From Candidatus Thiodiazotropha endoloripes (GTDB lineage: Bacteria; Pseudomonadota; Gammaproteobacteria; Chromatiales; Chromatiaceae): DNA of 64,000 bases. Shown one piece after another: positions 20,697 to 23,835 of the stretch (positions within the stretch are counted from its first letter, which is position 1; the number at the start of each line of letters is the position of its first letter). The position numbers and the translations under genes are program-made. The DNA is taken from positions 2,149,834-2,213,833 of the forward strand of contig NZ_LVJW01000003.1 in assembly GCF_001708965.1 (NCBI RefSeq). The letters run 5' to 3'. The notes beneath the pieces were generated by a model. The model saw nothing but the letters and a program-made list of their open reading frames with translations. It was not told the DNA's origin and did no database searches.

Positions 20697-21680
20697 TCAG
20701 CCCCTACCCTTTTTCGCAACCAGGATGGCACGTCTTGGTGCAGGATAACCTTCGACAGTCAGATCAGGATTCCGAGGGTCCAGATAGTCCTGCAGCGACT
20801 CAAAACGCATCCACTCCGTCGACCTTTGCTCATCGGTTGTGGTAGTAGAAATATCCACCAGTCGAATATCGCTGAAACCACTGCGTTTCATCCACCCTTT
20901 GAGGGTCTCTACCGTGGGGATAAACCAGACATTGCGCATCTTCGCATAGCGGTTTTCCGGGACCAGAACCTCCCTGTCCCCCCCCTCGATCACCAGGGTT
21001 TCTAGCACCAGCTCACCCTCTTTGCGCAGTGCCCCCATCAACTCAGTCAAGTGGGAGAAAGGCGATTGGCGATGATAAAAGACCCCCATCGAGAAGACCG
21101 TATCGAACGCCTTCAACTCCGCAGGCAGATCCTCAATACCCAGGGGAAACAGATGGACCGGATAGCCATTGCCAAGAAAGTGCTTGAAGGCTTCGAACTG
21201 CATATTGAACAGCTGGGTCGGATCGATCCCGATCACCCGCATCGCCCCCTCCCCATGAATGCGCCAGAGGTGGTAACCATTGCCACAGCCAACATCCAAC
21301 ACGGTTCGGTTTTTCAGCGGCGATATCTGCTCAACCAGGCGATCCCACTTAAGATCTGAACGCCACTCGGTATCTACATCAATGCCGCATATCCGGTATG
21401 GACCTTTGCGCCAGGGGTGCAACTGCTGTAGTGCATCGACGATCTGACTCCTGGTTGGATCATCACAATCGGCCATCTCACCGGCTTGCACTTTGGCGGA
21501 TCTGAAATCAACTTTTGAAACAGGGATGTCGGGTAACCGGGCCAGCGCTTCTCGCCACTTATGAATATCCCCGTGGGTCTGTTCACGCCATACCCGCTCA
21601 ACCTGTTGAGGAAGCTCCTTCAGCCAGCGTTCCAGAGGATGATCACCGTAGGCTTCACACCAATCCCAATCGTAGTTCAT
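20697..21680 (-). CDS. cmoB: tRNA U34 carboxymethyltransferase CmoB
   Basis: Transfers the carboxymethyl group of carboxy-SAM to 5-hydroxyuridine at tRNA position 34, giving cmo5U, which broadens wobble decoding. The 327-residue length is typical. An N-terminal CmoB-specific region (for example KWREALARLPDIP and GPYRICGIDVDTEWRSDLKWDR) is followed by a methyltransferase fold with the motif I VLDVGCGNGYHLWR and FSMGVFYHRQSP. Its start overlaps the stop of cmoA, the enzyme that makes its substrate, as ATGA. Confidence 0.96.
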   Translation of the reverse strand: MNYDWDWCEAYGDHPLERWLKELPQQVERVWREQTHGDIHKWREALARLPDIPVSKVDFRSAKVQAGEMADCDDPTRSQIVDALQQLHPWRKGPYRICGIDVDTEWRSDLKWDRLVEQISPLKNRTVLDVGCGNGYHLWRIHGEGAMRVIGIDPTQLFNMQFEAFKHFLGNGYPVHLFPLGIEDLPAELKAFDTVFSMGVFYHRQSPFSHLTELMGALRKEGELVLETLVIEGGDREVLVPENRYAKMRNVWFIPTVETLKGWMKRSGFSDIRLVDISTTTTDEQRSTEWMRFESLQDYLDPRNPDLTVEGYPAPRRAILVAKKGRG

Positions 21681-22402
21681 TTAATGGCCAGTAGTGAGAC
21701 AAAGTTAAAACACTGAAACCAGACTTCCACCGTTGTGAAACCGACCTTTTGAAGACGCAGCTTGTGTCTCTCCAGGGTCTCCGGAATCAACACATTTTCC
21801 AGAGCACTGCGCTTTTGACTGATCTCCAGGTCACTGTAACCCTGAGCTTTCTTGAAGCTGTGGTGCATCTCGGTAAACAGATTTTGTGAAGCCTCATTGG
21901 AGAGTGCAATCTTTTCCGAAAGTACCAACAGACCGTTATCCTGCATCCCATCATAGAGTTGCGTTAAAAAATCCTCACGATCCTCTGCTGGTATGAATTG
22001 CAGGGTGAAATTCAGGATAATCATGGAGGCCCGCTCGATCGTCACATTCCGTACATCAGAGCAGACCAGCTCTATCGGACTTTCCGCTTGATCCAGCTCC
22101 AACAGCTTCGCAGCCTGTTGTAACATCGGCAGGGAGTTATCCACCGCAATCAACGCATAGTCCTGGTGTGGCATGGAGGAGCGGACTGCCATGCTGGCCG
22201 CCCCCAGTGAGCAACCCAGATCGTAACAGTTGGAACCCCGGGTCACCCGGCGGCTCGCCAGAGTACCGATCATATTGATAATGGTCGCATAGCCGGGAAC
22301 CGAACGATTGATCATGTCGGGAAAGACCTGGGCAACCCGCTCATCAAAGACAAAATCGGGGACCACCTGCTGCGGATCGGCATACAGTTCATCTTTTTTC
22401 AT
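21677..22402 (-). CDS. cmoA: carboxy-SAM synthase CmoA
   Basis: Makes carboxy-S-adenosylmethionine from SAM and prephenate for CmoB. The 241 residues show a class I methyltransferase fold with CYDLGCSLGAASMAVR (motif I), AVDNSLPMLQ and MIILNFTLQFIPAEDRE, all characteristic of CmoA. A MITE-like element (22412-22552) lies 9 bp upstream of the start and supplies an AAGGAG sequence about 15 nt from the ATG, so the element may now provide part of its ribosome-binding region. Confidence 0.95.
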   Translation of the reverse strand: MKKDELYADPQQVVPDFVFDERVAQVFPDMINRSVPGYATIINMIGTLASRRVTRGSNCYDLGCSLGAASMAVRSSMPHQDYALIAVDNSLPMLQQAAKLLELDQAESPIELVCSDVRNVTIERASMIILNFTLQFIPAEDREDFLTQLYDGMQDNGLLVLSEKIALSNEASQNLFTEMHHSFKKAQGYSDLEISQKRSALENVLIPETLERHKLRLQKVGFTTVEVWFQCFNFVSLLAIK

Positions 22403-22411
22403 GACAGCAAT

Positions 22412-22552
22412 CTAGTGCTCCTTCAACCTAGAATCCGCAGTTGGACAGGGTGAAGTGTGCGCTTGTGGTTGTGCAGGGCAAGGAGTTGCAACGCCGCCAT
22501 GCGCCGCCACAGGCGCGCTGAACCCGGTAATATCATGTTGAAGGAGCACTAG
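22412..22552. mobile_element. MITE-like element with 16-bp terminal inverted repeats
   Basis: A 141-bp non-coding element whose ends, CTAGTGCTCCTTCAAC (22412-22427) and GTTGAAGGAGCACTAG (22537-22552), are perfect 16-bp inverted repeats beginning and ending with CTAG. The interior is GC-rich and has no reading frame. If CTAG is the duplicated target, the true inverted repeats are 12 bp. It sits exactly between two minus-strand genes, and the CTAG at its right end contains the TAG stop of the transporter gene. No transposase is present, so it would need one in trans. Confidence 0.7.
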
Positions 22553-23835
22553 TCCATCTCCTGGGCCGCCTTTTCACCCGCCTTCACATCCACCATGCTC
22601 AACAGTACCCCACCCAGAATAAAAAGAATGCCAACCGAGAGAATGGAGATTCTGGTACTGCCGGTCAAAACGCCGACCCAACCCATTATGAAGGGCCCCA
22701 ATACCGCGGCGAACTTACCCAGCATGTTGTAGAAACCAAAGAACTCAGCGGCCTGATTGTGGGGAATCAATCGGGCATAGAGGGATCGGGAGAGTGCCTG
22801 TATACCACCCTGCACCAGGCCGATGGCGATCGCCAAGGTGTAAAACTCCCAGACCGATTCCATATGGTAAGCCCAGAGCAGAATCAGCAGATAGATAAAG
22901 ATGGCGATCATGATCCCCTGCTTTGCCCCTCGCCTGGCCGCTATGGAGGCGAACACCAGTGCGGCGGGAAATCCGACAAATTGGGTGATCAACAGGGCGA
23001 CCATCAGGTTGTTGGCATCGAAACCGATCGAGAGACCGAAATCTACCGCCATTCTGACGATTGTGTCCACCCCATCGATGTAGCACCAGTAGGCGAGTAG
23101 AAACAGGAAGGTCATACGCAGACTGCGCAGGCTGGCGAAGGTCTCCAGCAGTTGGCGCAGACTGGCGGAGAACCAGCCTTTCTGCTGCTTTGGCCCCGTG
23201 GGCTCCTCAACCAACAGAAACAATGGCAGTGAAAACAGCCCCCACCAGACGGCCACACTGATGAACGAGAGACGTACCGCCTGAGCAGCATCAGCCAGTC
23301 CGAAGGCGCCTGGATAGAGAGTCATCAACACATTGAAGGTGAACAGCAGCCCTCCCCCGAGATATCCAAACGCATAGCCATAGGCGGATACCCGATCATA
23401 GTGCTGTTTTTGGGTAACCGACACCAGCAGGGAGTCGTAGAAGATGTTACCCCCCATGAAGCCGAGCATACCCAGACAGTAAAGTACCAGTGCCATGACC
23501 CAGTTACCCATCGACACCAGATAGAGGGAACCGGTCATGACAATACCCATGGCTGCAAAAAACAGCAGAAACTTCTTTTTCGCCCCGGCCTGATCCGCCA
23601 GCGCACCGAGAAACGGCGCCATGCAGACCACCAGAATGCTCGCCAGGGAGTTGGCCATGCCCAGTCGGAAGGTCGACTCGGTAACCTCAACACCGGCACT
23701 CCAATACTGCTTGAAAAACACCGGAAAAAATCCCGCCATTACGGTCGTTGCAAAGGCTGAGTTTGCCCAGTCATAGAGTGTCCAGGCGAAGGTGGGGGGG
23801 TGCTTGAGTAATGCCTTACTGGTCTGTTGGTTCAT
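22549..23835 (-). CDS. MFS transporter, UMF1/Atg22-like
   Basis: A 428-residue, twelve-helix major facilitator. It opens with the UMF1-family signature TLYDWANSAFATTVMAGFFPVFFK, has FLGALADQAGAKKKFLLFFA (loop 2-3 motif) and a second-half LSRSLYARLIPHNQAAEFFGFYNMLGKFAAVLGP. The substrate is unknown; family members have been linked to amino-acid or peptide efflux. Its TAG stop codon lies inside the end of the MITE-like element. A 14-bp palindrome lies 70-83 bp upstream of the start. Confidence 0.9.
   Translation of the reverse strand: MNQQTSKALLKHPPTFAWTLYDWANSAFATTVMAGFFPVFFKQYWSAGVEVTESTFRLGMANSLASILVVCMAPFLGALADQAGAKKKFLLFFAAMGIVMTGSLYLVSMGNWVMALVLYCLGMLGFMGGNIFYDSLLVSVTQKQHYDRVSAYGYAFGYLGGGLLFTFNVLMTLYPGAFGLADAAQAVRLSFISVAVWWGLFSLPLFLLVEEPTGPKQQKGWFSASLRQLLETFASLRSLRMTFLFLLAYWCYIDGVDTIVRMAVDFGLSIGFDANNLMVALLITQFVGFPAALVFASIAARRGAKQGIMIAIFIYLLILLWAYHMESVWEFYTLAIAIGLVQGGIQALSRSLYARLIPHNQAAEFFGFYNMLGKFAAVLGPFIMGWVGVLTGSTRISILSVGILFILGGVLLSMVDVKAGEKAAQEMD

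Follow-up and report, generated by a model that had tools for sequence, protein, structure and literature searches.

The 141-bp palindromic element that separates a transporter gene from a methyltransferase gene in the 64-kb window (the whole stretch of DNA analysed here) is probably a nested insertion collapsed by deletion: a MITE of one family (family B) would have inserted at the stop codon of the transporter gene, a MITE of a second family (family A) would have inserted into it, and most of both would then have been lost. The initial annotation, made from the sequence of the window, treated the element as a single unit and overlooked that its interior is a fragment of a second MITE family; what was an unexplained palindrome becomes a readable history of two mobile families and one deletion. 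In the genomes that carry family B, TAG stop codons are over-represented among its insertion sites, and B ends rebuild these stops. As far as our literature searches reach, this pairing of families, the proposed collapse of a nest and the bias towards stop codons are new, and neither family B nor the bias was recognised among the titles and abstract openings listed.

The element and its empty site

The palindrome exceeds chance. With 16 nt each and 100% complementarity, its arms (22412-22427 and 22537-22552) stand 109 nt apart; they form the sole exact inverted repeat with 16-nt arms and a gap of at most 200 across the window, and none of the 100 dinucleotide-shuffled versions of the window had a comparable repeat, so that the perfect terminal repeats of the initial annotation stand. 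The element also folds better than its own shuffles, as RNA (z of -6.5 and -5.8 for the two strands) and as DNA (z of -5.0). The 141 bp that had been given as the length of the interior are those of the entire element, and its bounds have to be drawn inwards, to 22415-22549, as the TA at each end is target duplication. ORF and Pfam calls agree with the placement between the transporter gene and the gene that had been named cmoA (Table 1).

Table 1. Features of the element and its two neighbouring genes (positions in the window)
Feature	Position	Strand	Basis
TA, left copy of target duplication	22413-22414		one TA in sister empty sites (CTAT); TA at borders throughout family B
First 12 bases of family B left terminal repeat (GTGCTCCTTCAA)	22415-22426	+	matches B ends
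TTCAA, family A target within B end	22422-22426	+	A duplications are WTNAW, including TTCAA; same junction in G006
Left part of family A MITE	22427-22518	+	94-98% identity to A copies of G016 over most of the stretch
12-bp stretch CCACAGGCGCGC common to A and B	22507-22518	+	A match reaches element position 107, B match starts at 96
Family B right end	22507-22549	+	96% match to B copy of G008
TA, right copy of target duplication	22550-22551		same basis as left copy
Transporter TAG stop (duplicated TA plus terminal G of the element)	22549-22551	-	ORF end; TAG of sisters at same place
AAGGAG, 15 nt before cmoA ATG	22418-22423	-	read from sequence
Transporter gene (Pfam ATG22/MFS), upstream	22549-23835	-	ORF and Pfam
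Methyltransferase gene (Pfam), downstream; named cmoA in the initial annotation	21677-22402	-	ORF and Pfam

With the 3' part of the transporter gene as query, a match was obtained in all 22 genomes of the genus. The border beside cmoA could be read in 12 other genomes (five close and seven more distant), none of which carries the element; among the other nine genus genomes, five match on the opposite strand without a reading of the border, and four have a different neighbour at that border. In the five close genomes (G016, G010, G008, G007 and G012, with 89-95% identity over the query) the transporter stop lies 9 nt from the cmoA start, and a single TA is present, followed by T (CTAT); three of the five read ATC-TA-TTCC on the plus strand, where the window reads ATC-TA-[G...C]-TA-GTCC. 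The element is an insertion, and its close relatives hold the empty site, which bears out its original description as a non-autonomous inverted-repeat insertion; the contrary case that had been considered, an element shared by every relative at the orthologous site and lacking any empty allele, does not describe what was found, since empty alleles exist. A comparison of the whole 141 bp with 56 genomes gave matches in 20, with a full-length match only in this genome. The element as a whole is unique, as had been envisaged for the case against a mobile repeat, yet both of its halves belong to repeat families.

Family B and its IS630 relatives

Family B is spread over many proteobacteria and duplicates the TA in CTAG. 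Its exact pattern was found in 87 stretches over genome contigs, hosted by Thiodiazotropha, Nitrosomonas, Zhongshania, Thiohalobacter, Methylophaga and other proteobacteria, and a 29-base pattern of its end, with up to 3 mismatches, in 11 of 210 family genomes (reversed control, 0), this genome having one such end. Of 61 pairs of B ends, 40 span 260-319 bp and nine about 31 bp, a typical B being about 265 bp long; the one full copy that was folded forms a terminal stem and inner hairpins, with a z of -12. Rfam gave 0 matches in five loci, and plasmid DNA gave no match to one B copy or one A copy. Each of the nine 31-bp miniatures (L093:4077-4108, L095, L104, L119, L136, L141, L142, L156 and L172) consists of two outer ends, left and right, joined together; since the inner part of the B end (CAAYATGATATTG) is nearly palindromic, an in-register deletion between the ends would give 31 bp, like a solo LTR.

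Among 153 distinct B ends, the G of the element is preceded by C-TA in 121 and by T-TA in 11 (Y-TA, 132 of 153), a count that leans towards this pattern because the search pattern for many of the loci itself began with CTAG. Four copies (L033, L110, L113 and L154) have TTAG at the left border and CTAG at the right, that is, T-TA-[G...C]-TA-G, and therefore point to a duplication of TA, as a 4-bp YTAR duplication would need a mutation.

We file family B as an IS630-family MITE, judging from its TA duplication, shared ends, shortness, non-coding content and many copies. In Nitrosomonas marina Nm71, a transposase of 233 residues, cut by the end of its contig and named IS630 by NCBIfam (NF033545), ends PAISN-stop inside a B-type repeat, TAGTGTTCTTTCAATTTGATATTGCCGG. 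At this place (L303/L305) one end only is visible before the contig stops; a second N. marina locus (L314) has both ends but is internally deleted and keeps just the C-terminal part of the transposase, and in one B copy (L101) NPAISC-stop is still readable at the right end. The N. marina IS630 element is the probable source IS of family B, and a candidate parent can be named for a MITE family spread over many proteobacteria. An IS with matching ends had been anticipated, and an end of this kind does occur at an IS-type transposase locus; the proposed link to IS5 and a YTAR target has to be given up, because the flanks fit TA duplication and the transposase found next to a B-type end belongs to IS630.

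Among the loci examined, none proved to be a complete IS bounded by two B-type ends. The protein search of 33 genomes gave a match in nine; most B-carrying genomes searched, this one included, showed no such transposase, and the relatives of the Nm71 transposase in 495 plasmid records are all below 60% identity. Some IS630-type transposase loci in B-carrying genomes have C-TA/GTG.../TA-G borders with other ends. One IS630-type element in G006 (L182:109-1289) lies at C-TA/GTGTGG.../TA-G, and the right flank of a B copy of the same genome (in L054) directly begins like the end of that element. Two candidates were rejected: the IS630 transposases of the genus (PF13358) as mover of B, which occur in 2 of 7 genomes and without B ends, and the long B-to-B spacings L127 and L176 as autonomous IS, in which no transposase was recognised by eye, L127 containing a copy of A, another repeat and a short gene.

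The element would work like RUP and other IS630-type MITEs. RUP (repeat unit of pneumococcus) is a 107-bp MITE ascribed to IS630-Spn1 (PMC2229807); like B, it is a short non-coding inverted repeat with a TA target and IS630-like ends, but its ends and host are different, B is longer with two inner hairpins, and the window copy is a chimera. For IS630 itself, a preference for TA in CTAG has been reported (Tenzen and Ohtsubo 1991); it has the same target and TA duplication as B, although IS630 is autonomous and B codes for no transposase. ISY100, of the IS630 family, had 2 of 39 insertions at AA/TT (PMC2170065), which the B copy L066, flanked by CAAG on both sides, resembles. Two further IS630-family elements, ISPna1 and ISMae29, have the same C-TA/GT.../TA-G borders as B, and the ends of ISMae29 look like those of B; unlike B, they are complete elements, they belong to other bacteria, and their transposases are about half identical to that of N. 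marina. MITEPsy1 of Pseudomonas syringae is, like B, a MITE inserted at CTAG or YTAA (100 bp), but it has a 4-bp duplication and different ends, and its ascription to IS5 carries a question mark (PMC3189936).

Family A and the junctions of the two families

The ends of family A read CCTRRAAnnnnCAGTTG, and its length is often 235-240 bp. Pairs of A ends were present in 39 of 40 picked regions, and 25 of the 39 have a perfect 5-bp duplication, in all 25 cases WTNAW (TTGAA 6, ATCAT 4, ATTAT 4, TTTAA 3, ATAAT 3, TTAAA 2, TTCAA 2 and ATGAT 1; orthologous rows were kept in this tally, and among several possible end pairs that with the best flank match was taken). Family A fits a short fixed-length duplication together with ends beginning CC (CCTRRAA), which we take to be traits of IS1380, and hence we liken it to an IS1380-type MITE. 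The domain PF13701 occurs in 2 of the 8 genomes searched; the intact locus (L253), with ends CCCARATAATCC and an ATAAA duplication, resembles A in plan and does not have the same ends, and neither an IS with the ends of A nor a transposase of A was found in this search.

Four bases in the A terminal repeats vary among copies and agree between the two ends of one copy; the inner-base variants include AACG../..CGTT versus AATC../..GATT (for example L235, L244 and L216). The genome G017, of the same genus and 3.4 Mb in size, has 320 A-type ends, versus 10 in the genome of the window (1 mismatch; reversed control, 2 in both). One A copy has identical flanks in three species (L213 in G000, L220 in G016 and L224 in G010), so that some A copies are old and inherited.

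The element of the window is made of both families: it matches A up to position 107 and B over 96-141, with the 12 bp of CCACAGGCGCGC in common. On its left side, the first base of A directly follows TTCAA, itself part of the end of B, and this first base of A is the sixteenth base of the palindrome. The junction of a B end with an A end recurs: its exact pattern, which variants would escape, is present in 2 of 22 genomes of the genus, this one and G006, where the junction carries another A variant. At the G006 junction (L248:98 onward, G006:C5:26947), A is likewise truncated, and a third repeat (GTAGGTCACGTTGCGCAGCTACGTGAC) comes after it. Stretches of the A and B interiors are alike (L249 versus L101 and L097, of the CAAGGCGCAAC...CAAGGAGTTGCAACGC type), with 74-76% identity over 54-72 bases despite different ends and duplications, and perhaps represent a common interior cargo.

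We infer the following order of events. A family B MITE would have been inserted at the TA of the transporter stop codon by an IS630-type transposase, duplicating the TA; a family A MITE would then have inserted at TTCAA within the left terminal repeat of B; and a deletion between the 12-bp stretches common to A and B, for which CCACAGGCGCGC is the probable junction, would have removed the rest of both. The remnant would comprise 12 bases of the left end of B, about 90 bases of A and the right end of B, with the 16-bp palindrome as what is left of the longer terminal repeats of B, and the outcome would be a shorter hairpin-forming element, presumably now nearly immobile, which keeps apart a gene pair of otherwise tight spacing. 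At this site, the genomes read show no intermediate, whether a full B or a B with a complete A, and this genome has no further B end at up to 3 mismatches, so that a source of B is missing from it. The second TTCAA of A is lost here, so that one copy of its presumed duplication is left, and the sisters have CTAT rather than CTAG, which calls for a substitution or a non-consensus target.

A chimera built elsewhere and then moved here whole, as a mosaic MITE via its outer B ends, would account for the lack of other B ends in the genome and for the intact outer 12 bases of both B ends and the intact TA duplication. There is precedent for the movement of mosaic non-autonomous elements: TIMEs resemble the window element in being non-autonomous and in forming mosaics, but they belong to the Tn3 family, and their mosaics arise by acquisition, not by the collapse of a nest (PMC4133298). 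Against such a transfer, the whole chimera occupies one site in 1 of 56 genomes, with no second copy showing movement, and we regard it as unlikely. Much less probable again is a fusion of A and B by template switching or recombination at similar stretches, in which A never inserted into B; the right junction does lie in shared sequence, and the interiors of A and B share stretches of 70-83% identity, but the left junction falls exactly at the terminal base of A behind a canonical A target, and does so in two species.

The two remaining explanations we consider very improbable, and about equally so. The simple 141-bp IS5-type MITE with a 4-bp CTAG duplication of the initial annotation has in its favour the CTAG at both ends and the precedent of MITEPsy1, but it is opposed by the flanks and the transposase described above and by an interior that comes from another family. 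A hairpin kept for a function at the operon border, in attenuation of cmoA or as its ribosome-binding site, would suit an element that has a strong hairpin and parts two genes only 9 nt apart in the sisters, with AAGGAG upstream of cmoA. This AAGGAG is present as annotated, but at 15 nt from the ATG it is rather far away for a ribosome-binding site; neither a promoter-like nor a terminator-like site was found in 22300-22700, and only this species of the 13 with the border read has the element. The nested insertion collapsed in place remains our preferred reading.

Insertion on TAG stop codons

Thirty-eight B ends are entered by a frame of at least 100 codons, 37 after removal of one near-duplicate. 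In 24 of the 37 the border TAG is itself the stop of the frame, as it is in 24 of the 32 where the TAG is intact; the window copy (L041) and L042, which had prompted the test, are among the 24, and without both the count is 22 of 30. At CTAG sites elsewhere in the same contigs the corresponding count is 52 of 257 (odds ratio 11.8, p = 1e-9, versus 24 of 32), CTAG being scarce in those contigs, with 402 sites per 655,607 bases versus 2,561 expected (1 in 256). The rebuilt stop of the window transporter is a case of the same stop-rebuilding. Survivorship is the simplest reading of the bias, as insertions on stops spare the gene and others tend to break one; selection of B ends for stop-rebuilding, rather than survivorship, would go beyond what these counts show. 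A testable rule follows: where an IS630-type MITE targets CTAG, its copies accumulate on TAG stops because its ends rebuild the stop, a rule that links target choice, CTAG rarity and the evolution of gene borders.

B ends might further suit gene borders in that they rebuild the TAG stop (TA plus the G of the element) and lay AAGGAG before the next gene, a suggestion we make tentatively and with some doubt. It is similarly conceivable, though we lean against it, that B can enter operon borders with both genes left whole, and perhaps even contributes signals for translation. Start codons that lie at most 9 nt behind a B end and open a 100-codon frame were counted at 18 of 153 ends (nine of them ATG), and the same count in later 9-nt bins is 7-14 (1-7 ATG), an excess too weak for B to be claimed as a donor of ribosome-binding sites.

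One orthologous TAG stop, at the border of an exonuclease-like gene and a short downstream gene (loci L279-L284; both gene names are guesses), holds a full B in G008 and a 31-bp B in G012 and is empty (CTAG or CTAA) in G000, G010, G016 and G007, a pattern of repeated use or loss at a single stop codon.
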